From Saprospiraceae bacterium (GTDB taxonomy: Bacteria > Bacteroidota > Bacteroidia > Chitinophagales > Saprospiraceae), in contig JAHDBF010000001.1 in NCBI GenBank assembly GCA_020630525.1, positions 1-49,704 on the forward strand: 49,704 bases of DNA, read 5' to 3'. Each line of letters begins with the position of its first letter. Within the stretch, counting starts at the first letter, position 1. Shown here in pieces: positions 25,028-40,477 of the stretch. The notes beneath the pieces were generated by a model. The model ran no database searches. It had not been told where the DNA came from and saw nothing but the letters and a program-made list of their open reading frames with translations. The translations under genes were made by a program, and so were the position numbers.

Positions 25028-25441
25028 CTACTGTTCTATATTTTTAATAAGCATTCCAGTTTGAGTAGAAGCTTTATTATCAATTAACCCAATAGGTTCT
25101 TGATTTTTATCTTTAATTAATGTTCTTCTTTTATTCCAATCTGCACCTTCCCAAAAGAAAGCAATTACTGCCCATACTAAAAGTAATGTAGGTAAAATGA
25201 CAGTCTTTACCAATCCTGGCACTTCATATTTCATATGCATAAATTCATATACAATCAAATATGCTTTTACAATACTCATCAAGATCATTACTCCACTGAT
25301 CACGATTAACGGAAAATGCATTCCTTCAATAATGTAACCTTTACCAAGTAAAGCGAATATTACCTCGCTGATCGTAATTATACCAAGTATTATTATTGTT
25401 TTATTTGCAATGGCTTTTGAAGCCTCGTATGATAATCCCAT
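25028..25441 (-). CDS. Cytochrome c oxidase subunit IV-type protein
   Basis: 137 residues with three membrane segments (about 13-32, 39-63 and 75-95), the layout of the prokaryotic subunit IV / CyoD-like family. It stabilises the oxidase core and takes no part in electron transfer. The first segments have NKTIIILGIITISEVIFALL and LIVISGVMILMSIVKAYLIV, the last TVILPTLLLVWAVIAFFWEG. Last gene of the long respiratory operon: the terminator follows directly, and the subunit III gene is 30 bases upstream. Confidence 0.85.
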   Translation of the reverse strand: MGLSYEASKAIANKTIIILGIITISEVIFALLGKGYIIEGMHFPLIVISGVMILMSIVKAYLIVYEFMHMKYEVPGLVKTVILPTLLLVWAVIAFFWEGADWNKRRTLIKDKNQEPIGLIDNKASTQTGMLIKNIEQ

Positions 25442-25471: not shown

Positions 25472-26473
25472 TTATAGTAAGTAAAATACAAGGAAAACGA
25501 ACACCCAAACCAAATCGACAAAGTGCCAGTATAATCCTATCTTTTCTACCATTTCATATCCATTCTTTCGCTTTATGTATAATCCGGTCATCACGTTAAT
25601 CATGATTATTAAAAGAAACAACAACCCTGATGCTACGTGAAATCCGTGAAATCCAGTAATAAAGAAAAACAATGCCCCAAAGGCTTTAGGACCAAATGGT
25701 TCATGTAATATTTGACCTTTATTTACGCTACCTTCTTCTGTCACCATGAACTTACGGTGTATAAATCCATCTTCATCTACATAAGCATCTTTGTAATCTC
25801 CGGGTGCTGCATAATGATGTCCACCATGTGCATCTCCATGCCCAGCTTCTGCACCATGAGCATCACCGTGACTATGATCGCCGTGATCTCCATGACCATG
25901 ATCGTCATGTGTAGATACATCAATCTTATGCAGTAAGTAACTTGTCTCAGGTCCAAATGCTTCACCATTTGGTTTTCCATTTTCATCTAGATATACTCCA
26001 GCTTCACCATGTGTTCCAAAAGTAGATCTAGTGATCGACATGTGTTCTAGATTAATCAAAGTGTTCCACTCCCAAGCTTGACAGCCTAAGAATCCAGCGC
26101 CACCTACTATAGTAAGAAACATCCAAAACGCAACCCCTTTTTGGTTTTCTTGATGACCTTCTTGTACTGCTCTTACCATTGTATAAGAACTAAATAGTAA
26201 AACGAAAGTCATAAAAGTTACGAAATACAAAGGCTTATTATGAATATCTAAACCAATATCTGGAATTGTACTAAAAACTTTATCTGGTATTGGCCAAGTA
26301 TCCATACTTACACGTAACGTTCCGTATGCGATCAAGAATCCTGCAAAAGTAAATGCATCAGAAAGTAAAAAGTACCACATCATCAACTTTCCATAACTCG
26401 CTTTGAATGGTGCTTTACCTCCATCCCACAGATCTTTGTTATCTGTTTCTGTATGTGTTAGCGTTTCTGCCAT
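25472..26473 (-). CDS. ctaE: Cytochrome c oxidase subunit III with His-rich insertion
   Basis: 333 residues, longer than typical subunit III. The membrane part is of the usual family: MMWYFLLSDAFTFAGFLIAY (about 31-50), YFVTFMTFVLLFSSYTMVRA, FWMFLTIVGGAGFLGCQAWEW, then FGALFFFITGFHGFHVASGL and YWHFVDLVWVFVFLVFYLL at the C-terminus. An insert of about 115 residues (145-258) lies between the fourth and fifth membrane segments and contains a run of His, Gly and Asp at 188-220. The insert should face one side of the membrane and may bind metals. Subunit III helps keep the oxidase stable during turnover and is not catalytic. It is one of two subunit III-type genes in tandem. Confidence 0.88.
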   Translation of the reverse strand: MAETLTHTETDNKDLWDGGKAPFKASYGKLMMWYFLLSDAFTFAGFLIAYGTLRVSMDTWPIPDKVFSTIPDIGLDIHNKPLYFVTFMTFVLLFSSYTMVRAVQEGHQENQKGVAFWMFLTIVGGAGFLGCQAWEWNTLINLEHMSITRSTFGTHGEAGVYLDENGKPNGEAFGPETSYLLHKIDVSTHDDHGHGDHGDHSHGDAHGAEAGHGDAHGGHHYAAPGDYKDAYVDEDGFIHRKFMVTEEGSVNKGQILHEPFGPKAFGALFFFITGFHGFHVASGLLFLLIIMINVMTGLYIKRKNGYEMVEKIGLYWHFVDLVWVFVFLVFYLL

Positions 26474-26492: not shown

Positions 26493-27068
26493 TTAACTTA
26501 ATAGTAAAAAAGCAAATAAATAAATCCATAAAATATCTACAAAGTGCCAATATTGTAACACTAAAGTAAAACGTGTTTTTCTCTTTTCTGAGAATTTAAA
26601 TGGTAAAGTAAATGCATGAATAATAGCTACCGTTAAAGCAGCAATACCTCCTAAGATATGTGCCGCATGTAAACCAGTTATTAAATACAAAAACGAACCA
26701 CTAACATTGCCTTTTAGATCCATTCCTGAATCAAACAATGCATGCCATCCTCTATATTGAAAAATCACAAATAAACATCCTAATAACAATGTTGCAATCA
26801 ACATCGATTTATACAATCCTTCTTTTCCATTAATAAAAGATCGAAAAGAAGTATGCAGCGTTATACTACTCAAAATTATTATAACTGTACTGATATAAAA
26901 TGCATTTGGCATTACATATTCTAACCAGTTTCCTGCTGCTTGCTTCACAATATATGCACTAGTAAGTGCAATAAACATCATTGTAATACTTGCAAAACCT
27001 AAATATAAGGCAAATACCTGCGGGTGTATTCTTTTATTTTCGTTGTGGTTTAATGCTACTTCATTCAT
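26493..27068 (-). CDS. Second heme-copper oxidase subunit III-type protein
   Basis: 191 residues with five membrane segments, the compact subunit III/CyoC form. Landmarks: FALYLGFASITMMFIALTSAY, SGSFLYLITGLHAAHILGGI and the ending LQYWHFVDILWIYLFAFLLL, matching the conserved TGxHxxHVxGG and WHFVDxVW motifs of the family. It lies 2 bases after ctaB and 19 bases before the longer subunit III gene. Tandem short and long subunit III genes are common in Bacteroidota aa3 operons. Confidence 0.88.
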   Translation of the reverse strand: MNEVALNHNENKRIHPQVFALYLGFASITMMFIALTSAYIVKQAAGNWLEYVMPNAFYISTVIIILSSITLHTSFRSFINGKEGLYKSMLIATLLLGCLFVIFQYRGWHALFDSGMDLKGNVSGSFLYLITGLHAAHILGGIAALTVAIIHAFTLPFKFSEKRKTRFTLVLQYWHFVDILWIYLFAFLLLS

Positions 27069-27070
27069 AT

Positions 27071-27976
27071 CTAAAATATTAAATAAGTTGCCAATATTAA
27101 TGGCAAGTAAAAGAATGAACTAAACATTAAACGCATGGCAGTTTTCCTTTCAGATTTTTGCTGAAATGCGATGCAAAAGTATAAATATACCATCGCTAAA
27201 ATTACAGAAAGAATGCATGCTACCATACTAACTCTTACATCAATTAGATATATTGATATACAAGTAGGAATTAAGAAAAATGCATATATCGCAGAATAGA
27301 AACCTAGATTTTCATCAATGTTTCCTTCCTTATTTATTGGTAATAATTTATAACCTGCCTTCTTATAATCGGCAAAACTTAACCAACCAATTGCCCAAAA
27401 ATGAGGGAATTGCCATAAAAATTGAATCATGAAAAGTGCTAAGCCAAATGCAGAAATATATCCTTCTCCAGCTACTGTTCCAATCAATACTGGCAAAGCT
27501 CCAGGTATCGCACCTATTGCTACTGAAGCAGTAGAATATCGCTTCATTGGTGTATATACAAAAGCATAAATAATTAATGATAATGTACCAAGGAATGCAC
27601 ATATTGGATTAATCAATGACAAACAAGTAATCCCAACTGCTGCAAAAATACCTCCAATAAGTACTGCTTCTGATACCGTCATTTGTCCGGAAGGCAATGG
27701 TCTTTCTTTTGTCCTATCCATCAACTTATCAAAGTCTCTTTCTAGCACTTGGTTTAAAGCGTTTGCCGATCCCGTTACCAAAAAACCACCAATAGTCAAC
27801 ATGATAAAGTTAAACCAAGAGAACATACTTCCTGCTACGACAAAGTAACTAAGCATAGAACTCATTAGCACCATCATAGAAAGCTTAAACTTAACCAATG
27901 CTTTCAAGTTGGTCATTAAACCTACCTTGTTTGATTGGCTTAATGCTATGGTTTTATATGTTGGATTATTTCTCAC
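27071..27976 (-). CDS. ctaB: Protoheme IX farnesyltransferase (heme O synthase)
   Basis: 301 residues, an integral membrane prenyltransferase that adds a farnesyl group to protoheme IX to make heme O for the oxidase. The first polyprenyl-diphosphate motif reads NALNQVLERDFDKLMDRTKERP (Asn, Asp, Asp ligands), and the second region is YKKAGYKLLPI after FADYK. Nine membrane segments are expected. Met21 (MTNLKALVKFKLS) is the more usual family start; the annotated ATG adds 20 residues. It lies between the subunit I and subunit III genes. No heme A synthase gene is seen in the window. Confidence 0.93.
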   Translation of the reverse strand: MRNNPTYKTIALSQSNKVGLMTNLKALVKFKLSMMVLMSSMLSYFVVAGSMFSWFNFIMLTIGGFLVTGSANALNQVLERDFDKLMDRTKERPLPSGQMTVSEAVLIGGIFAAVGITCLSLINPICAFLGTLSLIIYAFVYTPMKRYSTASVAIGAIPGALPVLIGTVAGEGYISAFGLALFMIQFLWQFPHFWAIGWLSFADYKKAGYKLLPINKEGNIDENLGFYSAIYAFFLIPTCISIYLIDVRVSMVACILSVILAMVYLYFCIAFQQKSERKTAMRLMFSSFFYLPLILATYLIF

Positions 27977-27997: not shown

Positions 27998-29884
27998 TTA
28001 ATGAAAATCTTCACCTGCAGTTTCTCCTTCTTCCATTGGAATATGCTGAGGAACAAACTCTCTTTCATCTTTATTGTAATCATATGCCCATCTATGAACA
28101 GAAGGAATTTTTCCATTCCAATTGCCATGCACTCCAGGTCCCATTGGTGAAGTCCACTCTAATGTAGTTGCTCCCCAAGGATTCATGGTAGTCTGTTTTT
28201 TCCCTTTGAATATACTGTAGAAGAAATTTATTACAAATAATATCTGAACTGCAAAAACAACAATTGCTGCAATAGTAATAAACTGATTCATATCCGTAAA
28301 ATGCTTAAATGCATCAAAAGAATCGAATCTATAATATCTTCTAGGTACACCTGCTAAACCAATGTAATGCATAGGCCAGAAAATTGCATATGCACCAATC
28401 ATTGTTCCCCAGAAATGTATTTTTCCTAAAGTCTCACTCATAAATCTTCCAAACATTCTTGGGAACCAATGGTAAATCCCAGCAAACATACCGAAGAATG
28501 CGGCAACTCCCATTACAATGTGGAAGTGAGCAACAACAAAGTAAGTATCGTGTAATTGAATATCAATCGCAGAGTTTCCTAAGAAAATACCTGTTAATCC
28601 ACCTGATATAAACATTGACACAAAACCAATAGAAAATAACATCGGGGAATTAAATCGGATATTTCCGCCGTATATTGTAGTGATCCAGTTAAACACTTTT
28701 ACCGCAGAAGGTACCGCAATAATGAGGGTAAAGACCACGAAGAAATTTGAAATAAATGGATTTACCCCTGACATAAACATATGGTGTGCCCATACAATAA
28801 AGGATAAAAATCCAATGGCGAGAATTGATAGTACCATTGCTTTGTAACCAAAAATTGGTTTTCTCGCGTGTACTGACAATACTTCAGATACAATACCCAT
28901 TGCAGGAAGTATAATAATATATACCTCTGGGTGTCCTAAGAACCAAAACAAGTGTTGGTATAATACTGGTGTTCCACCAATTCTTTCTAATGCTTGCCCT
29001 TCAATAAATATTTCACTTAAGAAAAATGATGTTCCTAATGATCTATCAAAAGTCAACATAAAGAATCCTGACGCCAATACTGGAAATGATAATAATCCCA
29101 AAATTGCTGTTACAAAGAAAGCCCAAATTGTCAAAGGCATTCTCCACAATGTCATTCCCTTTGTTCTAAGGTTTAATACTGTAGTGATATAATTTATTCC
29201 TCCTAGTAATACAGAAACTACAAAGAGTACCAAACTTACAATCCATAAGGTCATACCTGCGCCGGAGCCTGTCGAAGCTTGCGGCAGCGCACTCAGTGGA
29301 GGATATGCTGTCCAACCACCAGAAAACGGACCTGTATTTAAAAATAATGATATAAACATGACGATTCCAGCGAGGAAAAAGAACCAGTATGAAAGCATGT
29401 TCATAAATGGTGATGCCATATCTCTAGCGCCTAATTGGAATGGGATCAATAAGTTACTGAATGTACCACTCAGTCCTGCCGTCAATACAAAGAATACCAA
29501 AATGGTTCCGTGCATAGTCACCAATGCATAATAGAATTCTGGTGCTAAAGACCCGACCCCGTCAGAAACGGTAATCCATTTTCCTAATAATGGTTTTAAC
29601 CAAGCAAAGTTTTCTTCTGGAAAACCCAATTGTAATCTGAAAATGATTGACATTCCAGCACCAATTATTGCCCAAATAATACCAGTTATTAAAAACTGTC
29701 TAGCAATGATCTTGTGATCCATGCTAAATATGTAGTGAGAAATGAAGTTAGACTGGTACTTATCTCCATGATGATGTTCATGAAAATGGTCATCAAATCC
29801 AGTTTCTTCAATCTGCTTTGCTACCAATATATCTTCTTCGTGAATAGTATTTGCGTCAGCCATAACTACTTCTTTCTTTTTCAA
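27998..29884 (-). CDS. ctaD: Cytochrome c oxidase subunit I
   Basis: 628 residues, the catalytic heme-copper subunit that reduces oxygen and pumps protons. Twelve membrane segments with the expected ligands: low-spin heme His in ALVTMHGTILVFF, CuB/active-site motif WFLGHPEVYIIILPAMG with the Tyr of the His-Tyr pair, a following VWAHHMFMSG (two CuB His), and HDTYFVVAHFHIVMG with the proximal heme ligands. The HPEVYI form indicates an A-type oxidase. The N-terminus carries a His-rich stretch (DDHFHEHHHGDK, about 31-42). The ATG at 29884 abuts the stop of the subunit II gene; Met8 (29863) is an alternative start. Co-transcribed with all neighbours. Confidence 0.96.
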   Translation of the reverse strand: MKKKEVVMADANTIHEEDILVAKQIEETGFDDHFHEHHHGDKYQSNFISHYIFSMDHKIIARQFLITGIIWAIIGAGMSIIFRLQLGFPEENFAWLKPLLGKWITVSDGVGSLAPEFYYALVTMHGTILVFFVLTAGLSGTFSNLLIPFQLGARDMASPFMNMLSYWFFFLAGIVMFISLFLNTGPFSGGWTAYPPLSALPQASTGSGAGMTLWIVSLVLFVVSVLLGGINYITTVLNLRTKGMTLWRMPLTIWAFFVTAILGLLSFPVLASGFFMLTFDRSLGTSFFLSEIFIEGQALERIGGTPVLYQHLFWFLGHPEVYIIILPAMGIVSEVLSVHARKPIFGYKAMVLSILAIGFLSFIVWAHHMFMSGVNPFISNFFVVFTLIIAVPSAVKVFNWITTIYGGNIRFNSPMLFSIGFVSMFISGGLTGIFLGNSAIDIQLHDTYFVVAHFHIVMGVAAFFGMFAGIYHWFPRMFGRFMSETLGKIHFWGTMIGAYAIFWPMHYIGLAGVPRRYYRFDSFDAFKHFTDMNQFITIAAIVVFAVQILFVINFFYSIFKGKKQTTMNPWGATTLEWTSPMGPGVHGNWNGKIPSVHRWAYDYNKDEREFVPQHIPMEEGETAGEDFH

Positions 29885-31381
29885 TTATTTGGAAACGATC
29901 TTTAATTCAGTTCTTCTATTTTCTTGTCTTCCTTCAGGAGTATTGTTGTCTCCTTGAGGGTTACTTTCACCATACCCAACAGCAGTCATTCTGTTAGCCG
30001 TAATACCTTTTCTTACTAAGTAATCTCTAACTGCAGTTGCTCTGCTATTAGACAATGTTTTGTTAGCGTCTTCATCACCTACTGAATCAGTGTGTCCTCC
30101 TACTTCAATGATTGCTGAGTTATACTTCTTTAATAATTCAGCCACTTTATTTAATTCAAACTGAGAATCTGTTTTTAAAACAGAAGAGCCAGTTTCAAAG
30201 AATACATTTTTCATTCTAATAATCGCATTCCCTAATGTATCTGCCATTGCAGAGGCGAAAGCTGAAGTCAATTCTTTATTTCTATTTTGAATTTCAGTTT
30301 CTAGTAATTTTCCTTTGAATGGATCAGCATCTGTGTTTCTAATATTAGACATATAATATGAACTCTGTTCAGATTTCCATGCTTCATATTCTTCTTGAGT
30401 CACAATTTCTACTACCCTTCGCATACTGTAATGTCCCTCTCCACACAACTCTGCACAAGCCAATTCGAAATCAAAAGCTTCCCATCTTTGAGGACCATCT
30501 GGCTCTGATTCATCCGCAGGAATTTGCCATTCAGGGTATTCTTTTAATTGTTTTCTATAATCAGCCGTTGTTGTGATTGGCGTAAATATAAAGTATGTCG
30601 GCAATCCTGGGATCGCATCCATTTTTACCCTAAAGTGTGGTAGATAAAAGTTGTGTAATACATCTCTTGCTGTGATTCTTACCCTTACTTGTTGACCTAC
30701 TGGCAATACAATCTTATCAGGATTGAAGTCATCAATATTTTTAGGATCTGTCCAATCTTGACCAAATGGATTATTTGCTAAATCTACCTTTCTAAAATTT
30801 GTTGTGCCTAATTTTTCATCTGCACCAGGATATCTTATATCCCAAGCAAACTGGTATCCATTGGCTTGAATCTCGATATATTCATCTTCAGGACCAACAT
30901 CTGGCATCACGTCATTCCAAACTACCAATCCTTTAACAACTAAGAATGTCATTACTAAAGCTGGAATTGCCGTCCAAACGATTTCTAAACTTGTATTATG
31001 AACAAAGAAAATTGCTTTATTGCCTTTTTTAGCTCTGTATTTGTAAGAGAACCAAAATAGTGCAACGTGTGTGATAATAAATACTATACCTGTAAAGAAT
31101 AAAGTCCAATTAAATAGTGAATCAATACTTCCTCCATGTTCAGAAGCAGATTTTAACGGACCATATCCCAACATTGAATCTTTATAGTATAGCGCAGATA
31201 CAACACACCCAATTAAAAATACTGGCATGAATATCAGCAACCACAAAGCAGTTCTGTTATTCCCTTGGTAGAATGATTCTTCTTCACCTCTGATTTTTGC
31301 AGAAAGCTCAGACACCTTCCCAATCTGTATTAGTATTACAGCTAGGAGAATAAGTATCAATAATATTACTAAACCTGTCAT
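29885..31381 (-). CDS. ctaC: Cytochrome c oxidase subunit II fused to an OmpA-like domain
   Basis: 498 residues. Four membrane segments: two extra at about 4-20 and 46-66, then the usual pair at about 92-112 and 135-155. The CuA cupredoxin domain follows with all ligands visible: His243 in VLHNFYLPHF and CAELCGEGHYSM (Cys309, Glu311, Cys313, His317, Met320). After a helical linker (about 330-386) residues 387-498 are a complete OmpA C-terminal (peptidoglycan-binding) domain: VFFETGSSVL, GGHTDSVGDEDANKTLSNSR and the final GRQENRRTEL, keeping the Asp and Arg that bind diaminopimelate in family members. The usual fusion partner in caa3 oxidases is cytochrome c; here it is OmpA. Both domains lie on the periplasmic side, so topology is consistent. 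The frame is continuous with no sign of an assembly break. Confidence 0.93.
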   Translation of the reverse strand: MTGLVILLILILLAVILIQIGKVSELSAKIRGEEESFYQGNNRTALWLLIFMPVFLIGCVVSALYYKDSMLGYGPLKSASEHGGSIDSLFNWTLFFTGIVFIITHVALFWFSYKYRAKKGNKAIFFVHNTSLEIVWTAIPALVMTFLVVKGLVVWNDVMPDVGPEDEYIEIQANGYQFAWDIRYPGADEKLGTTNFRKVDLANNPFGQDWTDPKNIDDFNPDKIVLPVGQQVRVRITARDVLHNFYLPHFRVKMDAIPGLPTYFIFTPITTTADYRKQLKEYPEWQIPADESEPDGPQRWEAFDFELACAELCGEGHYSMRRVVEIVTQEEYEAWKSEQSSYYMSNIRNTDADPFKGKLLETEIQNRNKELTSAFASAMADTLGNAIIRMKNVFFETGSSVLKTDSQFELNKVAELLKKYNSAIIEVGGHTDSVGDEDANKTLSNSRATAVRDYLVRKGITANRMTAVGYGESNPQGDNNTPEGRQENRRTELKIVSK

Positions 31382-31412: not shown

Positions 31413-32690
31413 TTAAACGTGGTGGTGTAAACTTTCCTCTAAATATGGATCATGTGTTGGTTCTAATTTTGCTTTTGTCAAACTTGAAAAAACAAAATAT
31501 AAGAACAAACATAAAAATCCGATTCCTGTTCCTAACTCCAAAAATCCTGGCATCGCGAATCCACCAATTGCTTCATGTGCACCATGACCATGATCTCCGT
31601 GGTGTCCACTTGCATGTGCAGCTACTTCATGAGCTGTATGCAATACGCCAGGTTTAATCATTAAAAAGTAATCAATCCAGTGTCCAAATAAAACCATCAC
31701 TGCAATGAATCCTAATGATCCCCACTTTCTCTTCGTATCATTTCTCATTAGAACAAAAAATGGAAGCACAAAGTTTATCAATAAATTACCGTAGAATAAT
31801 ACTGGGTAATTATCTATTCTTTCTTTGAAATAAATGGTTTCTTCACCAACATTGGCATACCAAATTAGCATGTATTGAGAGAACCATAAGTATGTCCAAA
31901 AAATACTAAATGCAAATAATAATTTACCTAAATCATGTATATGCTCATTTGAAGTAGAAGCAAAATATCCCTTCATTTTCAAAATCATTAAAACCAAAAT
32001 AGTCAGTGCCAACATAGATACAAACCAAGATGCACCAGAATACCAAGCGAACATAGTACTATACCAATGTGAATCTACTGACATCACCCATTGCCATATC
32101 ATAGCTGCACTTAAAAAACCTGCTAGCGGTAAGTAAGCTGCAGCCCACCATCTCATCCATCTATGGCTCGAAAAGTCTTCATCATTTCCTTCATCTTCTT
32201 TGATAGATAACGCTCTTATTCTTGTCATTATAAAAAACCAAATTCCTACGCTAAATATGGTCCCAAATAAGTACCATGACTTGTTTAAGAATCCTGATTT
32301 TCCAGCGATAATTGGGTCATAAAGTTCATCATTTACATCAAGCAAAGCAGGATCAGTCCAATGATAAAGATGATGCCAACCAAAATAAGTACCCAATGCC
32401 AATATTAGCATTAAAATAAATCCTATACCCATGAATAGAGAAAAGGATTCCCAGATTCTTTTGAAAGTAACATACCATCCAGCCCAAGCTGTGATACTAG
32501 CACATAAAAAGAATCCAGCCATAACTGCTATTCCTGTAAAAAATACAGAATTGTGAAGGAAGTTTGACCAAAAACGGCTATGTATTGCATCATCTGCAAA
32601 AAACCATGTACCTGCCATACATAACACACCAATAACAACACCGATCAACAGTGTCATCCTGTGCCTTCCTGTAAATTCAAAACTGGTCAT
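31413..32690 (-). CDS. actF: Alternative complex III subunit ActF (membrane quinol-site subunit)
   Basis: 425 residues with about ten membrane segments, the length and gene position of ActF. The start FTGRHRMTLLIGVVIGVLCM and a later segment with SVDSHWYSTMFAWYSGASWF are characteristic of this quinol:cytochrome c oxidoreductase subunit, a paralogue of ActC. It anchors the complex and helps form the quinol side and possible proton path. A His-rich loop (HASGHHGDHGHGAHEA) precedes the last membrane segment. It lies between actE and the oxidase subunit II gene. Confidence 0.88.
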   Translation of the reverse strand: MTSFEFTGRHRMTLLIGVVIGVLCMAGTWFFADDAIHSRFWSNFLHNSVFFTGIAVMAGFFLCASITAWAGWYVTFKRIWESFSLFMGIGFILMLILALGTYFGWHHLYHWTDPALLDVNDELYDPIIAGKSGFLNKSWYLFGTIFSVGIWFFIMTRIRALSIKEDEGNDEDFSSHRWMRWWAAAYLPLAGFLSAAMIWQWVMSVDSHWYSTMFAWYSGASWFVSMLALTILVLMILKMKGYFASTSNEHIHDLGKLLFAFSIFWTYLWFSQYMLIWYANVGEETIYFKERIDNYPVLFYGNLLINFVLPFFVLMRNDTKRKWGSLGFIAVMVLFGHWIDYFLMIKPGVLHTAHEVAAHASGHHGDHGHGAHEAIGGFAMPGFLELGTGIGFLCLFLYFVFSSLTKAKLEPTHDPYLEESLHHHV

Positions 32691-32714: not shown

Positions 32715-33581
32715 TTAATGCTTGTGATCTTCTCCATGTCCATCAGTATCGTGTCCATGGTGTCCTCCACCGTCGTGACTATGTCCTTCGTGTGTATGAT
32801 CACCATCATGGTGTCCACCTTCGTGATGTGCTTCTTCATGATTATCAAGATGTCCATCGTTCATACCGATCATCACGTTTTCACCTGCTGGCTTATCAAT
32901 CGCGTTTAATGTATTTTCTAATTGGTTATAAGCCAATTTTTTGTCTTTAGCTTGTAAAGATCTGATATAATGAATCACTTGCCATCTTTCATCGTAAGAC
33001 AATTTATCAGAGTAACCTCCCATCACATTTTTACCATGCATTATTGAATGATAATATCTTCCATTTGATGCAGATACGAATTCATCCAATAAAAAATTAG
33101 CTGGCTGTGCTGGATACTTTCCTCCATCATCTCTGACTAAATATCCGTTTCCATCACCTTTTGCACCATGACATATTCCACAGTATAAATCATATAATTC
33201 TTTACCTGTAGCAATACCTTTATCTGTAATAGGAAAAGGGTTATCAATTAATTCATTGGTAGCTCTAGTTCTTTCATCTTCGCTATCACCATAAGCATAA
33301 GGGACTGAACCAACTGTAGGAATAGCAATGTTAGCAGCGGAAGTTCTAGATACTGTTCCAGGAACTGGTTTTCTCGGTTGAGCCATTTCATAGTACTCAC
33401 CTTCTGTTCCCCATGTATTAAATGAATAGTAATTATAGTAGTTTGCTTCGTAAGCAACTGAATGTGCCATATCTGGCATATATTCACTACCTGGAGAATC
33501 TCCTCCTGGGCTTTTACAGGAATAAATAACCAATACGATTATCCCTATAACTAATAATTTTTGTATTTCTTTAAAATTCAT
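32715..33581 (-). CDS. actE: Alternative complex III subunit ActE, monoheme cytochrome c lipoprotein
   Basis: About 288 residues from the chosen start MNFKEIQKLL; the longer frame to 33623 overlaps actD and starts before the signal peptide. The lipobox IYSC makes Cys22 the lipidation site. The heme motif CGICH (Cys134-His138 in the shorter form) sits in YDLYCGICHGAKGDGNG, with the distal Met ligand region around ANGRYYHSIMHGKNVMGGY. ActE passes electrons from the complex toward the oxidase. The last 45 residues are extremely rich in His, Gly, Asp and Glu, an unusual extension that could bind metal ions. Gap of 10 bases to actD. Confidence 0.9.
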   Translation of the reverse strand: MNFKEIQKLLVIGIIVLVIYSCKSPGGDSPGSEYMPDMAHSVAYEANYYNYYSFNTWGTEGEYYEMAQPRKPVPGTVSRTSAANIAIPTVGSVPYAYGDSEDERTRATNELIDNPFPITDKGIATGKELYDLYCGICHGAKGDGNGYLVRDDGGKYPAQPANFLLDEFVSASNGRYYHSIMHGKNVMGGYSDKLSYDERWQVIHYIRSLQAKDKKLAYNQLENTLNAIDKPAGENVMIGMNDGHLDNHEEAHHEGGHHDGDHTHEGHSHDGGGHHGHDTDGHGEDHKH

Positions 33582-33591
33582 TGTATTGGGA

Positions 33592-34110
33592 TTAAATCGT
33601 TTTAGAGTGAATTTCAGATGCACCAGTAGAACTTAAGAAACTTTCTGCAGCTCCACTTTCATTTGCTCCTTTTTCAAAAGCAATGCAAAATTTATCATCA
33701 GTGATTCTTGTATCAATGGTAGGATTCACAACGCCTGGACCTAATCCACATATTACATAGAAGGTAACTACCATACCTATAGAAGCAAACAATACTGTAA
33801 GCTCAAAAGTAATTGGAATGAAAGAAGGTACTGCCCAGTATGGTTTACCACCATATACTATTGGCCAATCCTTGGTAAAAATCCAAGTCATACCTAAAAA
33901 TGCCGTCAATGTTCCGATTGCTCCATAGATAAAAGCACCAATGTGTAATCTTGATTCAGACAATCCCAACAACGGATCTAATCCGTGCACGGGAAATGGA
34001 GTATACACATCCATAATATCTAAATGCTGATCTCTAGCAACTTCTACAGCTTTGAGCAAATCTTCCTCATCGTTGTATAAACCGTAAATAATGTCTTTAT
34101 GATTAGCCAT
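33592..34110 (-). CDS. actD: Alternative complex III subunit ActD (DUF3341)
   Basis: 172 residues, the DUF3341 family. Starts with a small alpha/beta domain (IIYGLYNDEEDLLKAVEVAR; DIMDVYTPFPVHGLDPLLGL) and continues with two membrane segments (about 75-98 with FIYGAIGTLTAFLGMTWIF, and 110-128 with FELTVLFASIGMVVTFYVIC). ActD is a structural subunit of the complex. It lies 12 bases past actC and just before actE, in the standard order. Confidence 0.92.
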   Translation of the reverse strand: MANHKDIIYGLYNDEEDLLKAVEVARDQHLDIMDVYTPFPVHGLDPLLGLSESRLHIGAFIYGAIGTLTAFLGMTWIFTKDWPIVYGGKPYWAVPSFIPITFELTVLFASIGMVVTFYVICGLGPGVVNPTIDTRITDDKFCIAFEKGANESGAAESFLSSTGASEIHSKTI

Positions 34111-34122
34111 AATTATTGATTC

Positions 34123-35853
34123 TTAATATTTTCCTCCGTCTAATCTGTCCTGCAAATCTTTTAATTCATCCCACTTTCCTTCGCTTGCCAATTTGGCTTG
34201 TGCAGGCCACGATTCTGGGCTATTACCCATGAAATTTCCATCGCCTTCATCCAAAATTTGTTGTAATCTTTCAACATTAGCATTGGACAATTCTTCGAAA
34301 GTATTTATACCAGCTGCATTTAATGTTGCAGCTACTTTTGGACCAATTCCTTCTAATTTTTTTAAGTCATCTACAACTGTAGCAACCTTTTCTGCTACTG
34401 CTGTGGCAACAGTTTCTGCTACAGATGATTTATGCGTGTGACTTGCATGAGCACCATGATTATCATGTCCATGATGGTGAATGGCATTAGGCCCAGTGTA
34501 TTGATCTCCCGCAGATTTTAAAATACTTTTTACCTCTGCAATAGCAACCACTGGCGCTACTCTTGTAAAAATTAGATACAAAGTAAAGAATAACCCAATT
34601 GTACCTAAGAATATTCCCATTTCTACCCATGTTGGTGTATAATAACTCCAGCTAGATGGTACATAATCTCTTGCTAATGTAGTTGCAATAATTACAAAAC
34701 GCTCAAACCACATTCCGATATTTATTACTATTGATATAAAGAATGTGATGGCAATATTTCTTCTAAATTTCTTAAACCAGAATATCTGTGGAGAAAGTAC
34801 ATTACAGAACATCATCCCAAAGTATGACCACCAATAAGGTCCCATAGCTCTGTTGAAGAATGCAAACTGCTCATATACATATCCTGAATACCATGCGATA
34901 AATAATTCAGTCAAATAGGCAACACCTACTATTGTTCCTGTAACTAAGATTACTTTGTTCATTGACTCTATGTGCGCCAATGTGATGTAATCTTCCAATT
35001 TCAACATTGTCCTAGTAACTAACATCAATGTTAGTACCATGGCAAATCCCGAGAATATTGCTCCAGCCACAAAATATGGAGGGAAAATAGTTGTATGCCA
35101 TCCTGGTATTACTGAAGTGGCGAAATCAAAAGATACAATTGTATGTACAGAAAGTACCAAAGGAGTCGCAATACCTGCTAATGCCAAAGAAAGTGTTTCC
35201 CATCTTTGCCAGTGCTTTGCAGAACCAGTCCAACCAAATGATAAAAAGTTATAAATGCTTTTTCTTATGCCTTTTGCTCTATCTCTTACCGTTGCGAAGT
35301 CAGGCACTAAACCTGTATACCAGAATAATAATGAAACGGTAAAGTATGTACTGATCGCAAATAAATCCCACAATAAAGGAGAGTTAAAGTTAGGCCATAT
35401 AGGACCTCTTGTATTTGGATAAGGGAAAAAGTAGAAAACTACCCACGCCCTACCAACGTGAATTCCTGGAAATAATGCAGCACAGATCACGGCAAATATT
35501 GTCATTGCCTCTGCTGCTCTGTTTACTCCAGTTCTCCATTTTTGTCTAAATAATAAAAGGATAGCAGAAATCAATGTTCCTGCGTGACCAATTCCGATCC
35601 ACCAAACGAAATTAGTAATATCCCAACCCCAACCTATAGTTCTGTTAAGGTTCCAAGTTCCGATTCCATGCCATATTGTCCATGCAATACAGAATAATCC
35701 AAAACCTAAGGCAGATACTGCCAATACAAAACCGATAACCCAAGGTAAGTTAGGTGCTTTTTCTGTCGGTGCGACTAAATCTTCAGTAATTTGGTGGTAG
35801 GACTTGTGTCCATTTACTAAAGGTTCTCTAATATTACTTACATAATGACTCAT
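34123..35853 (-). CDS. actC: Alternative complex III subunit ActC with fused helix-hairpin-helix domain
   Basis: 576 residues. The first 450 or so are an NrfD/PsrC-type membrane protein of about ten segments, with typical stretches WDITNFVWWIGIGHAGTLIS and GIHVGRAWVVFYFFPYPNTR; this subunit holds the quinol-binding site. After a His-rich linker (IHHHGHDNHGAHASHTHKSS) the last 82 residues form an added domain: DLKKLEGIGPKVAATLNAAGINTFEELSNANVERLQ, a helix-hairpin-helix, then a helical tail. Such LEGIGPK domains are known in DNA-binding proteins and as tails on other Bacteroidota proteins. The fusion is in one uninterrupted frame. The domain probably faces the cytoplasm or periplasm and could bind another protein; DNA binding seems unlikely for a membrane enzyme (inference). 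Confidence 0.9.
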   Translation of the reverse strand: MSHYVSNIREPLVNGHKSYHQITEDLVAPTEKAPNLPWVIGFVLAVSALGFGLFCIAWTIWHGIGTWNLNRTIGWGWDITNFVWWIGIGHAGTLISAILLLFRQKWRTGVNRAAEAMTIFAVICAALFPGIHVGRAWVVFYFFPYPNTRGPIWPNFNSPLLWDLFAISTYFTVSLLFWYTGLVPDFATVRDRAKGIRKSIYNFLSFGWTGSAKHWQRWETLSLALAGIATPLVLSVHTIVSFDFATSVIPGWHTTIFPPYFVAGAIFSGFAMVLTLMLVTRTMLKLEDYITLAHIESMNKVILVTGTIVGVAYLTELFIAWYSGYVYEQFAFFNRAMGPYWWSYFGMMFCNVLSPQIFWFKKFRRNIAITFFISIVINIGMWFERFVIIATTLARDYVPSSWSYYTPTWVEMGIFLGTIGLFFTLYLIFTRVAPVVAIAEVKSILKSAGDQYTGPNAIHHHGHDNHGAHASHTHKSSVAETVATAVAEKVATVVDDLKKLEGIGPKVAATLNAAGINTFEELSNANVERLQQILDEGDGNFMGNSPESWPAQAKLASEGKWDELKDLQDRLDGGKY

Positions 35854-35873: not shown

Positions 35874-38800
35874 TTAAGCATCAAGTGATGTATCTCTATT
35901 ATTAACTCTCATTCCATAGGTAACTGCAGATTTCACATTTACCTCTTCCAATGCTATATAATTCAATGGTGAATCCAATTTCTCATTCAATTCTCCATTT
36001 TTATTGTTCAAATCTCCAAAAGTAATTGCTCCAGTAGGACAGGCTGTTTGACAAGCTGTTCTAACATCTTTATCTACCAATCTTCTTCCTTCTACTTTTG
36101 CTCTTAATTTTCCTTCTTGAATTCTCTGTACGCAGAAGCTACATTTTTCAATTACTCCTCTTACCCTTACTGTTACGTCAGGATTCAATACCATTCTAGT
36201 AAGATTATCTGCACCATATGGCACTTCTTCGCCATTAATTGGTACTTGATTCGCAGGGAATAAATCCGCAGTAGTATAATCCAACCAGTTGAATCTTCTT
36301 ACTTTAAATGGACAGTTGTTAGCACAATATCTTGTACCTACGCATCTGTTGTATGCCATTTGATTCAGTCCTTCAGCACTGTGGTTGGTTGCATTTACTG
36401 GACAAACATTCTCGCAAGGCGCGTTATCACAGTGTTGACACATCATTGGTTGATAAACGGTATTCGGATTTTCTACATCTCCGTAATAATATCTATCAAT
36501 TCTTAACCATGTCATTTCGTGGTGACGGCTTACTTCTTTTTTACCAACAACAGGTACATTATTTTCTGCCATACATGATATTGTACAAGCATTACATCCC
36601 GTACAAGCGTTCATATCCACGTGCATTCCCCAGTGATGACCTTGAGAATATCTGTTCTCAGTGTATTCCTCAAAAGGATATAGTGTTTGCTCATTTAAGT
36701 GTTGAGCAAATTTTCTTTTCTTATCTAATTTCTTAATGCTTTTCGGAAGGTCTGCAAGATTCGAAGTGTACATCACCGACCTATCAGTCAATGCTCCTTG
36801 GAATCCACTAGCTCCGTAAGCCATACCTAATGCTTCTTCGTCAGCATTAAATTGCTTTCCATCTTTATCTTCATCTGTTACACCATAAGTGTGGTGGTAT
36901 TGCACACAAGAAAAAGCATCTTCTTTGCCTACTTTATTAGACACACTTACATTTGTATTAAAATACTGCGTGTATCCACCATTTGAAGTAAGGCAATCGT
37001 TTACATTTACGCCAACGCCATTTGCACAAGCACCAGACATTTCACGTCCGTATCCTAATGCGATAGCAACAGTACCTGGCATCTGACCAAACTGCTGAAT
37101 AACAGGAACTTGAACCGTTTTATCACCAATGGTAAGGTTTACTAAATCTCCATCTTGGAGGTTCATAGATTCTGTCATTCCGAAGAATCTTTTAACACCA
37201 TCAAAACCTACTGGTACTGCTAGGTAATTTCCCCAAGACGTTCTATCAACAGGATCTGGCATTTCTTGTAACCAAGGATTATTTGCCAAAGTCCCATTTC
37301 CTATACTTACTTTTTCGTAAAATGAAATTTCTAATTCTGAGTTTGAAGGTTTTGTTACGCCTGCAAAAGCAGCAGAAACATTTCCAGAGAATGCAGATAC
37401 GGAACTACTTCCTTTACCATTTGCAACGCCATCTCTCAATAATTTTTCCCAATAAGATTGAGAAGAAATAAATCCTGATTGGTCGCCAGCACCTGACTGA
37501 TAATTCTTTTTCAAGTATTCGAAGTAAGGCTGATCAGCATTATTATTGACATTTGGTGAATCTGCCCAAGTTAATAATGACAATTCCATTTGACGCGTGT
37601 CGAATAATGGACTGATTGCTGGTTGTATCATACTGATACTTCCTTTTTTCGGTTCTGCATCACCCCAACTTTCAAGCGTATGGTTAATTGGTGCGATAGC
37701 ATCACAACTAGAGATTGTCTCATTAGGGTTATAAGCTAAACCTATTTTATAAGCTGATCCCATTGCTGCTTTTAAGGCAGCTCCGTTATGGTATTCGAAT
37801 ACTGGATTGCAATCGTTAAAGATTACCGTTTTTACTGAGCCATTTTTAAGATCATTGATTAAACCTTCCAATCCAGCTTCATCTCCTTGTCTTTGCATAG
37901 AAGCAGAAGCTAAATCTACTGTTGATCCAATATTTCCTAATTCATTATTTATTGCATTAATTAATATCTGTTCTGAAACGTTGTTAGAGTTAGATACTAC
38001 TAATGATTTTCCTCTATTTGCTTTAAGTTGTGTAGCCACATTATCTAAAGCTTTGGCTGCTTTGGCGTTTACTTTAGGTGCAGAACCACCAACAATTTTA
38101 CTTGCTAAATAAGCTATTGCAACACCTTGTTCTGAAGGTTTTACCAATATTCTATTATCTGCATTTGATCCGGTCATAGACATGTGGCTTTCTACCTGAA
38201 TATGTCTTGACATTGTAGGATTAGAAACATTATCTATTTTACGCTTAGTTGCATATTGACGGGCATATTCTACTGGAGAAATCCAAGTTCCAAGAAAATC
38301 TGCGCCGAAGCTTACGATTAAATCAGCTTTATCAAATCTATAATTTGGAATCACTTTAGCACCAAAACATGATTCATTTGCGTTCAACAATGCTGCTGAA
38401 GACACAGAATCATAAGTAACTACTTTTGTAGAAGGATATTTAGCCTTAAATTCTGCAATTACTTTTTTTGCAGTTGGACTTAATATTGTATTGGTTACCA
38501 AACAGATGTTTCCACTTGATAATTTTGACTTAATTGCTTTATCAAAATCTGCCCATGAAGAAGATGTCATGCCGTCTGCAGACTTCATCATAGGTTTTTT
38601 ATATCTATTCGTGTCGTATAAAGTAAGTACGCTAGCTTGCGCACGTGCAGAAGTTCCACCTTTAGTCATTGCTGACAAGTCGTTACCTTCAATTTTTATA
38701 GGACGACCTTCTCTTGTTTTCACAAGAATAGGACAAAAATCGCCACCATTTACGTAGCTAGATGCATAGTAAGTAGCTACACCTGGAACGATTGCGTCTG

Positions 38801-39035
38801 GTTTTACTACATAAGGTATTGCTCTTTTTACTGGAGTATCACAGGCTGCAACAGTAGCAGCACCAATGCCAAAACCTAGAAACTTTAGGAAGTCACGTCT
38901 GTTAGCTTGGATGCCTTCAGCTGCTTCTTCTACTTGTTCCATTGAAACGGAATGCATTTCATTTTGAACTTCTTTCATGAAGTTTTCTTCCTGCACCAGA
39001 TCCTGTTTCCCTACCCAAATATTATTATTACTCAT
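35874..39035 (-). CDS. actB: Alternative complex III subunit ActB (molybdopterin-like and iron-sulfur protein)
   Basis: 1053 residues, the largest subunit. Twin-arginine-type signal ANRRDFLKFLGFGIGAATVA (Arg46-Arg47) followed by AAC (Cys65), as in ActB proteins that are translocated folded and lipidated. The N-terminal two thirds (about 80-770) is a molybdopterin-oxidoreductase-like domain, without a cofactor in known complexes. The C-terminal part binds iron-sulfur clusters: CTGCNACTISC, CQHCDNAPCENVCPVNA, CVGTRYCANNCPF and CSFCVQR with CQTACPTGAI, enough for four clusters. It transfers electrons between the quinol site and the hemes. It follows actA by 35 bases. Confidence 0.95.
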   Translation of the reverse strand: MSNNNIWVGKQDLVQEENFMKEVQNEMHSVSMEQVEEAAEGIQANRRDFLKFLGFGIGAATVAACDTPVKRAIPYVVKPDAIVPGVATYYASSYVNGGDFCPILVKTREGRPIKIEGNDLSAMTKGGTSARAQASVLTLYDTNRYKKPMMKSADGMTSSSWADFDKAIKSKLSSGNICLVTNTILSPTAKKVIAEFKAKYPSTKVVTYDSVSSAALLNANESCFGAKVIPNYRFDKADLIVSFGADFLGTWISPVEYARQYATKRKIDNVSNPTMSRHIQVESHMSMTGSNADNRILVKPSEQGVAIAYLASKIVGGSAPKVNAKAAKALDNVATQLKANRGKSLVVSNSNNVSEQILINAINNELGNIGSTVDLASASMQRQGDEAGLEGLINDLKNGSVKTVIFNDCNPVFEYHNGAALKAAMGSAYKIGLAYNPNETISSCDAIAPINHTLESWGDAEPKKGSISMIQPAISPLFDTRQMELSLLTWADSPNVNNNADQPYFEYLKKNYQSGAGDQSGFISSQSYWEKLLRDGVANGKGSSSVSAFSGNVSAAFAGVTKPSNSELEISFYEKVSIGNGTLANNPWLQEMPDPVDRTSWGNYLAVPVGFDGVKRFFGMTESMNLQDGDLVNLTIGDKTVQVPVIQQFGQMPGTVAIALGYGREMSGACANGVGVNVNDCLTSNGGYTQYFNTNVSVSNKVGKEDAFSCVQYHHTYGVTDEDKDGKQFNADEEALGMAYGASGFQGALTDRSVMYTSNLADLPKSIKKLDKKRKFAQHLNEQTLYPFEEYTENRYSQGHHWGMHVDMNACTGCNACTISCMAENNVPVVGKKEVSRHHEMTWLRIDRYYYGDVENPNTVYQPMMCQHCDNAPCENVCPVNATNHSAEGLNQMAYNRCVGTRYCANNCPFKVRRFNWLDYTTADLFPANQVPINGEEVPYGADNLTRMVLNPDVTVRVRGVIEKCSFCVQRIQEGKLRAKVEGRRLVDKDVRTACQTACPTGAITFGDLNNKNGELNEKLDSPLNYIALEEVNVKSAVTYGMRVNNRDTSLDA

Positions 39036-39070: not shown

Positions 39071-40477
39071 TTAATAATGACATTTTTGACACTCTAATCC
39101 TCCTATGTCTTCCACGGTTACTTTATCTCTATCTCCATTAGCCAGTTGCTCATGGTAATTCTCGTAACTATCATAGTATTCATTGCCTTCAAACTGTACT
39201 TCAGTCTGTCTGTGGCAATTGATACACCATCCCATTGATAGTGGCGCGTGTTGTTCTACGACAGCCATTTCCTCTACTTTACCGTGACATGCTTCACATT
39301 CTACCTTACCCACAGTAACGTGTTGCGAATGATTAAAATAAACATGATCTGGTAAATTATGGATTCTTTCCCATTCTATAGGACCTTGTACTTTCTTTTT
39401 CTGCTCGTTTGTAAGAGAAGAAACCAAGTCTGTCCATTGCTCTTGTACCATTTCTAGACCAGTCTGATCGAGAGAATCAATTCCTTTTTCTGCTTTGATA
39501 TTGTCTCCAATCCACTTAGTATATATAGATTCTACTTCATCTTGAGATAAAGATTCATAATCTTCTATGTATTTATCAGTACTTGGATCGTAACCTATAG
39601 AAGCATATATTTTAGTTAATTCTGCAGTTCCATATTCTGAACCTACTTTTATGGCTTTGTGGCAATTCATGCAAGTATTGGTTGCTGGAATAACAGCGTG
39701 TTTTGACCTTCTTGCACCATCGTGACAGTATTGACAATCTATTTTATGTAATCCTGCATGCGTTTCGTGTGAGAATTTAATTGGTTGCTCTGGAGCATAT
39801 GCTTGTTGTCTACCTAAATTAACTGCTTTTGTAACAGTCAAATATCCACCAAGAATAACAGCAGCAAATATCAAGAATGAAACAACTGACTTGCTTGTCA
39901 ATGTTTCTACTAAAGTTTTTCTTTCTGCAAACCCACCTTCTTTTACAGTAGCAATGTGGTTAAGGTTTCCAACGATTCTTGTCAATATTAAAGCCAAGAA
40001 TCCAAGTATACCAAGTAAAACCCAGTAAATCCAGTTTCCAAAACCATTTTCAGTTGAATCTACATCACCTCCTCCAGAAGCAACTGATAATGTCTCAGGA
40101 ACTTTATTAGCTTGGGCATCAATATATAACATTACAGACTCAATCTCCTCATCTGTAAGATTTGGCCAAGCTGTCATAACTGTAGGCTTCCACTCATTCC
40201 AAAGCTCTACTGCTTTAGGATGCCCAGCCTGAATCATTTTTTGTGAATTCCTGATCCAATCGTATAAATCTTGTCTAGGATAATCTGCCCATCTCTCTTC
40301 TACGCCTCCTAAAGCAGGCCCAGTTAACTTTGACTTCATATCCTTTGCGTGACATGAAGCACAATAGTTTTTAAATACAGTTTTACCGACATCGACAGTT
40401 GGTTCTGCCGTCAGCAAAAGCGGTATAGAAAAAAGAATAAGAAATGATAGTTTAAAGAACAATCTACTGTTTATCAT
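39071..40477 (-). CDS. actA: Alternative complex III subunit ActA, six-heme cytochrome c
   Basis: 468 residues. Signal peptide about 1-24. Six CxxCH motifs: residues 39-43 (CASCH), 248-252 (CQYCH), 269-273 (CMNCH), 394-398 (CEACH), 418-422 (CINCH) and 463-467 (CQKCH). The first belongs to a separate N-terminal class I cytochrome domain (about 25-125) joined by a Gly/Ser-rich linker and a membrane segment (149-169); a second membrane segment (198-216) precedes the pentaheme part. Between hemes 3 and 4 lies an extra charged stretch (about 300-365). ActA passes electrons from ActB to the cytochromes and on toward the oxidase. It is the first gene of the operon; a good promoter lies about 70 bases upstream. 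Confidence 0.93.
   Translation of the reverse strand: MINSRLFFKLSFLILFSIPLLLTAEPTVDVGKTVFKNYCASCHAKDMKSKLTGPALGGVEERWADYPRQDLYDWIRNSQKMIQAGHPKAVELWNEWKPTVMTAWPNLTDEEIESVMLYIDAQANKVPETLSVASGGGDVDSTENGFGNWIYWVLLGILGFLALILTRIVGNLNHIATVKEGGFAERKTLVETLTSKSVVSFLIFAAVILGGYLTVTKAVNLGRQQAYAPEQPIKFSHETHAGLHKIDCQYCHDGARRSKHAVIPATNTCMNCHKAIKVGSEYGTAELTKIYASIGYDPSTDKYIEDYESLSQDEVESIYTKWIGDNIKAEKGIDSLDQTGLEMVQEQWTDLVSSLTNEQKKKVQGPIEWERIHNLPDHVYFNHSQHVTVGKVECEACHGKVEEMAVVEQHAPLSMGWCINCHRQTEVQFEGNEYYDSYENYHEQLANGDRDKVTVEDIGGLECQKCHY

Follow-up and report, generated by a model that had tools for sequence, protein, structure and literature searches.

A putative cell wall tether for the ACIII-aa3 respiratory supercomplex of Saprospiraceae, carried by CoxB or ActE

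We analyzed a 49,704-nucleotide stretch of DNA from a Saprospiraceae bacterium (contig JAHDBF010000001.1 of assembly GCA_020630525.1; hereafter the window) and found that one of its genes, coxB-ompA (29885..31381, minus strand), encodes a 498-residue protein joining cytochrome c oxidase subunit II to a C-terminal OmpA domain. This CoxB-OmpA fusion is common within Saprospiraceae, the aquatic family to which the host belongs. A new finding of this analysis is that some genomes place OmpA not on CoxB but on ActE, which carries the haem c of alternative complex III (ACIII). Under the reading that we consider best, to which we assign a probability of roughly 70%, the OmpA domain would tether the ACIII-aa3 supercomplex to peptidoglycan.

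The frame of the fusion gene (29885-31381) runs from ATG to TAA with no internal stops and, in agreement with the sequence-only reading that preceded this work, holds both a complete CuA domain and a complete OmpA domain. Four membrane helices are predicted at the N terminus by the AlphaFold model (residues 2-31, 33-65, 81-114, and 130-158; 30908..31381; these and all coordinates below refer to the minus strand), the last two of which form the COX2 hairpin and are matched by the Pfam family COX2_TM (PF02790, residues 78-149). These precede a periplasmic CuA domain (approximately residues 165-325; 30407..30889), matched by COX2 (PF00116, residues 171-260), with both Pfam matches lying above cut-off. 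The CuA motif CAELCGEGHYSM (residues 309-320; 30422-30457) is followed by a linker of 66 residues (321-386; 30224..30421), in which the model predicts a helix at residues 361-380, and then by an OmpA C-terminal domain of the peptidoglycan-binding type (residues 387-498; 29888..30223). The latter matches the whole PF00691 profile (residues 394-489, E 4e-25, scoring 88 bits where the cut-off is 27.2). Its motif TDSVGDEDANKTLSNSRA (residues 431-448) contains Asp432 (30086-30088) and Arg447 (30041-30043), 15 residues apart, which we take to be the peptidoglycan-pocket residues of the domain; the earlier claim that both are present is thus correct. That reading had also described two extra N-terminal membrane segments as unusual. 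Two such helices (2-31 and 33-65) are indeed predicted, but they are ordinary in Bacteroidota: of the CoxB alignments listed for the class, nearly all begin at query residue 1-12.

The AlphaFold model of the fusion, made with 52 aligned fusions, has a mean pLDDT of 86.9 and shows four long N-terminal helices, the CuA domain, a one-helix linker, and a regular OmpA fold. In Foldseek searches, the whole model matches oxidase subunit II structures, and the OmpA part matches Capnocytophaga OmpA (5wtp, TM 0.87) and the peptidoglycan-binding domain of OprF (5u1h, TM 0.79, 44% identity). The COX2 hairpin, the CxxxCxxxHxxM motif, and a Foldseek match to 7atn_B identify the protein as a haem-copper oxidase subunit II of the CuA type, and its C-terminal part has the fold, the profile match, and the Asp/Arg spacing of an OmpA C-terminal domain. 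CxxCH is absent from the fusion protein, which places it outside the caa3-type subunits II with their C-terminal haem c. The host genome contains one match to PF00116.

Flanked by actF and coxA, the fusion gene belongs to a series of genes in the order actABCDEF-coxBA-ctaB-coxC1-coxC2-coxD, the arrangement of an ACIII-linked aa3 oxidase operon. Upstream are actA, encoding the multihaem cytochrome c subunit of ACIII (39071..40477; named from its position and from Pfam Cytochrome_C7, Cytochrom_CIII, and Cytochrom_C); actB, the iron-sulphur subunit (35874..39035; Fer4 families); actC, the NrfD-like membrane subunit (34123..35853; NrfD); actD (33592..34110; ActD, 4.8e-56); actE, a monohaem cytochrome c that in this window is without OmpA (32715..33623; Cytochrome_CBB3); and actF (31413..32690), which has no Pfam match and takes its name from its position and from relatives at the same place. 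Downstream are coxA, encoding oxidase subunit I (27998..29863; COX1, 9.5e-147), whose open reading frame runs from a TTG at 29884 and whose probable ATG start, read from the sequence, is at 29863; ctaB (27071-27976); coxC1 (26493-27068); coxC2 (25472-26473); and coxD (25028-25441). Stretches rich in His, with a possible role in binding or buffering metal ions, occur in the ActE tail, ActF, and CoxC2. At a locus elsewhere (L111:1619-2722, genome G187), ActD and ActE occur in one fused frame, with Pfam matches to ActD and cytochrome c.

In Flavobacterium johnsoniae, a six-subunit ACIII (ActA-ActF) has been isolated in complex with cytochrome aa3, and its ActE is membrane-anchored with one haem c (PMC8552683, PMC8361435). 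Deletion and complementation of act genes are feasible in this species (PMC8552683). CoxB and ActE therefore share one supercomplex in a relative, and we infer that they would do so in the window's host as well. The Flavobacterium complex differs in that an OmpA domain goes unmentioned in the passages of these reports that we consulted, where the term 'ompA' (PMC8552683) concerns a promoter.

Searching for COX2-OmpA architectures across Bacteroidota, a check proposed alongside the sequence-only reading, showed the fusion to be widespread in one family. Our sequence searches covered Bacteroidota genomes and solved structures; the surveys scored long frames only, and the phylum-level survey concerned CoxB (match threshold E 1e-15). 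Named relatives, some of whose CoxB cores are identical to cores from other genomes of the host family, assign this family to Saprospiraceae. The order-wide sample comprised 139 genomes, of which 132 gave a CoxB match; the 16 Saprospiraceae genomes in it, the window's own included, all have CoxB-OmpA. Outside Saprospiraceae, long frames in this sample contained CoxB-OmpA in five genomes (G043, G048, G061, G077, G141) and ActE-OmpA in 13, 11 of them in a single family (f12). Besides its own, 24 genomes of the host family were scored: 16 carry CoxB-OmpA, two ActE-OmpA, and four neither, and for two (67% and 87% complete) the listing shows no CoxB match. Among the 80 named loci that lie closest to the window CoxB, an uneven sample of close relatives, 59 have CoxB-OmpA, seven ActE-OmpA, and 13 neither, and one is cut by a contig end. 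The same continuous architecture thus recurs in many separately assembled genomes, which excludes an assembly, frame, or chance artefact; some relatives are without the domain. Cultured bacteria with the CoxB fusion include Membranihabitans marinus, Neolewinella persica, N. antarctica, and Lewinella sp. W8; Phaeodactylibacter xiamenensis has neither CoxB-OmpA nor ActE-OmpA.

Among the long frames of a class-wide sample of 139 genomes, CoxB-OmpA was not found outside the order; one ActE-OmpA was (G223), and its pocket Asp is replaced by Trp. Outside the class, 15 genomes of a phylum sample of 138 had a CoxB match, in frames of at most 368 residues, too short for both domains. These counts leave out four long CoxB frames: G090 (481 residues; order), G253 and G213 (477 and 434; class), and G398 (469; phylum). 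The family-mates of the first three that we read have CoxB without OmpA (L050, L058, and L131; L106 and L126; L110 and L124, respectively). Open-access titles and abstract openings yielded no description of CoxB-OmpA or ActE-OmpA; subscription and annotation sources lay outside this scope, and prior notice is possible.

Long CoxB proteins outside the order were considered as further OmpA fusions and, among those read, rejected, their extra length consisting of N-terminal haem-c domains, insertions, N-terminal extensions, or OmpA-less C-terminal tails. Another type of wall-binding domain standing in for OmpA was also considered: in a selection of ten long or odd act and cox proteins (four CoxB, two ActF, one ActB, and three ActE or ActE-containing), there were no Pfam matches to LysM, SPOR, or PG-binding families, and the only OmpA match was the one already known in L112. 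Sixteen genomes from nine Bacteroidota families (L092-L101, L103-L105, L113, L122, and L123, in other families of the class) have a CxxCH in CoxB 46-91 residues from the frame start, before the membrane helices. Both proteins of this kind that we tested (L092, L105) have an N-terminal cytochrome c Pfam domain, and in 15 of the 16 genomes the actE match is on a different contig. In family f14 (L050, L058, L131), CoxB is 477-488 residues long and without OmpA, and its match to the window CoxB breaks between the membrane and CuA parts, suggesting an insertion.

CoxB and ActE carry the domain alternately. Removal of identical CoxB cores left 126 loci, and both genes could be scored in 113: OmpA is on CoxB only in 62, on ActE only in 18, on neither in 33, and on both in none. 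Among the 33 are two loci (L059 and L086) where ActE is followed by a run of N and then directly by an OmpA reading frame; these probably represent ActE fusions. These two frames aside, the operon loci that we read have OmpA only on CoxB or ActE. Under independence 9.9 loci with both fusions would be expected, against none seen (Fisher p 8e-8, kinship ignored). A kinship-aware paired test has at most four informative pairs, too few for significance (median p 0.5), and in none of these do the CoxB and ActE labels change the same way. A CoxB-core tree, made by a quick search with SH-aLRT support only, implies at least 20 state changes among scored rows, gains being indistinguishable from losses; on its starred branches, the CoxB label must change at least 11 times and the ActE label at least four times.

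Trees of the OmpA domain itself, with 72 and 147 rows, are built on 110 columns and have many open forks, and the bootstrap of the 72-row tree had not settled. In the 72-row tree, the CoxB-OmpA domains of three other families (L053, L054, L057) are starred together with a free-standing OmpA protein from a Saprospiraceae genome (L224); the four also group, unstarred, in the 147-row tree. By eye, the likeness to L224 reaches upstream of the OmpA domain. The OmpA parts of L053, L054, and L057 are 73-77% identical and their CoxB cores 44-54% identical; either spread of the domain or separate captures from a single conserved source may account for this. Two CoxB-OmpA domains of family f4 (L055, L056) fall beside other OmpA proteins in both trees, with a star in the 72-row tree and at 90% in the 147-row tree. 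Starred branches force at least four changes for each of the two labels in the 72-row tree, and at least two (CoxB) and three (ActE) in the 147-row tree. The trees do not support a single common origin of all CoxB-OmpA domains. Because the CoxB-OmpA domains of other families group with different stand-alone OmpA proteins, more than one fusion event is probable; multiple origin is supported, if poorly resolved, and we hold with moderate confidence that CoxB captured OmpA more than once, probably three times, and that ActE did so several times.

In one case, the domain may have moved between the CoxB and ActE genes. The ActE-OmpA of L033 is starred with the CoxB-OmpA of L144 in the 72-row tree, and by CoxB core L144 is the sister of L032 and L033. 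Against a move, the 147-row tree leaves L033 unplaced and puts L144 among other CoxB fusions, which are also the best BLAST matches of L144; the BLAST lead of L033 for L144 is slim (108 bits against 107); and L032, which by CoxB core is sister to L033, has an OmpA domain that is starred with L228, an OmpA protein unrelated to these. A fold model of the L033 ActE-OmpA was poor (pLDDT 61.6) and was left out of the evidence.

The fusion is a CuA subunit of a cytochrome aa3-type oxidase, normal apart from its periplasmic linker and OmpA extension. In the mechanism that we propose, hanging from the CuA head by a linker whose length suggests that it could reach well into the periplasm, the OmpA domain would bind the diaminopimelate side chain of peptidoglycan via Asp432 and Arg447. 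The inner-membrane ACIII-aa3 supercomplex would thereby be held under the wall non-covalently, in the manner of MotB and TssL. An OmpA domain on ActE, in the same supercomplex, should have the same outcome, and this equivalence of the two placements would explain why the domain is found alternately on one subunit or the other. The architecture, the conserved pocket, the purifying selection, and the alternation between two subunits are observed directly. We infer peptidoglycan binding, immobilization of the complex, and an advantage from it, which could be that complexes keep a set position or spacing, or that inner membrane and wall are stapled together.

The pocket and the domain around it are conserved. 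Asp and Arg are kept in all 86 distinct CoxB-OmpA domains recognised by the profile, in 20 of 21 ActE-OmpA domains, and in 39 of 40 other OmpA domains, three of which come from the operon (L031, L059, L086). Across the 52 aligned fusions Asp432, Asn440, Leu443, Ser444, Arg447, Ala448, and Asn488-Arg490 are invariant. Conservation of the pocket in homologues, whose loss the earlier reading had named as grounds for refutation, accordingly holds among recognised domains and breaks down in three CoxB tails that keep the OmpA length and have lost the Asp/Arg motif (L149, L165, L168); these score under the profile threshold and do not count toward the 86. A weak OmpA profile match remains in the L149 tail. 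In 15 close pairs, the OmpA part has a dN of 0.04-0.35, with dS high or saturated; in the eight pairs where it can be computed, dN/dS is 0.02-0.20 for the OmpA part, mostly above that of the CoxB core (0.02-0.08 in the eight pairs that allow a value for the core). The OmpA part is thus under purifying selection. This low dN/dS, the intact pocket of every recognised fusion, and a probable origin on more than one occasion make it very improbable that the tail was caught by chance and persists without function, even though capture would be easy in a genome where OmpA domains are so common (22 matches, 20 above cut-off) and the tail has been lost or eroded in some lineages. Some OmpA-like domains act in protein contacts, and the fused domain might bind another protein or aid supercomplex assembly, with wall binding secondary or absent. 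The three motif-less tails of OmpA-like length would fit such a role. We nonetheless regard it as improbable: residues of the OmpA motif are among those that never vary, and domains from different OmpA proteins would be less likely to have a common partner.

The distance from the CuA motif to the OmpA domain is near constant in Saprospiraceae, at 63-70 residues (script's count) in 75 of 82 distinct tails, 46 of which have a distance of 68. This spacing would also suit a role mainly in the envelope and not in respiration: an abundant inner-membrane complex would be a staple that sets the distance to the wall, and CoxB and ActE would simply offer handy places for the domain. That OmpA can sit on either subunit, and that some relatives do without it, suggests that the electron-transfer core does not need it. 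Such a role leaves unexplained why OmpA stays with this operon, and we consider it unlikely as the principal explanation. A tether of the supercomplex itself, first put forward by the sequence-only reading, gains partial support from pocket conservation, purifying selection, the match to peptidoglycan-binding domains, and the exclusivity of CoxB or ActE. Because some relatives are without the domain and three tails are without its motif, the domain appears dispensable in places; by the same token, with OmpA on neither CoxB nor ActE in 16 of 80 scored Saprospiraceae loci, the tether would not be essential.

More broadly, we lean, by a little, toward the view that Saprospiraceae and relatives in their order have a wall-anchored respiratory supercomplex whose anchor was gained on several occasions, each time from another OmpA protein, on CoxB or on ActE, and may have moved between them, one per complex being enough. 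This view rests on repeated fusion and alternation, not on the CoxB-ActE move. Respiratory complexes are usually regarded as diffusing freely in the membrane. The apparently repeated addition of OmpA to one or the other of two parts of one complex suggests that wall-pinned respiratory machinery can be useful, and a repeatedly evolved wall-bound terminal oxidase, if real, would be a natural system for studying a fixed respiratory complex in relation to electron transfer or envelope spacing. The CoxB/ActE alternation makes the tether idea testable by deleting or transferring one small domain.

Several known systems share parts of this architecture. MotB, MotS, and TssL are inner-membrane proteins with a C-terminal OmpA domain that bind the cell wall, and the window OmpA domain matches MotS, MotB, and TssL1 chains; they differ in being motor stator and type VI secretion proteins, not redox enzymes. 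Subunit II of caa3 oxidases (e.g. 2yev) matches the window protein in sequence and fold and likewise combines COX2 with a C-terminal addition. There the addition is a cytochrome c, whereas in the window protein it is OmpA, with no CxxCH. A core electron-transfer membrane subunit with a C-terminal OmpA domain occurs in photosystem I of the cyanobacterium Gloeobacter violaceus: the window OmpA domain matches residues 754-864 of the 872-residue PsaB chain 7f4v_aB (E 2.5e-20) of PDB entry 7F4V, a G. violaceus trimer (PMC9000952). The terms 'OmpA', 'C-terminal', and 'extension' were not found in a term search of the main text of that report. Judged by this match, Gloeobacter PsaB, which belongs to a photosystem and not to an oxidase, appears to be the nearest precedent for the CoxB-OmpA fusion and is the sole redox case met in this analysis.
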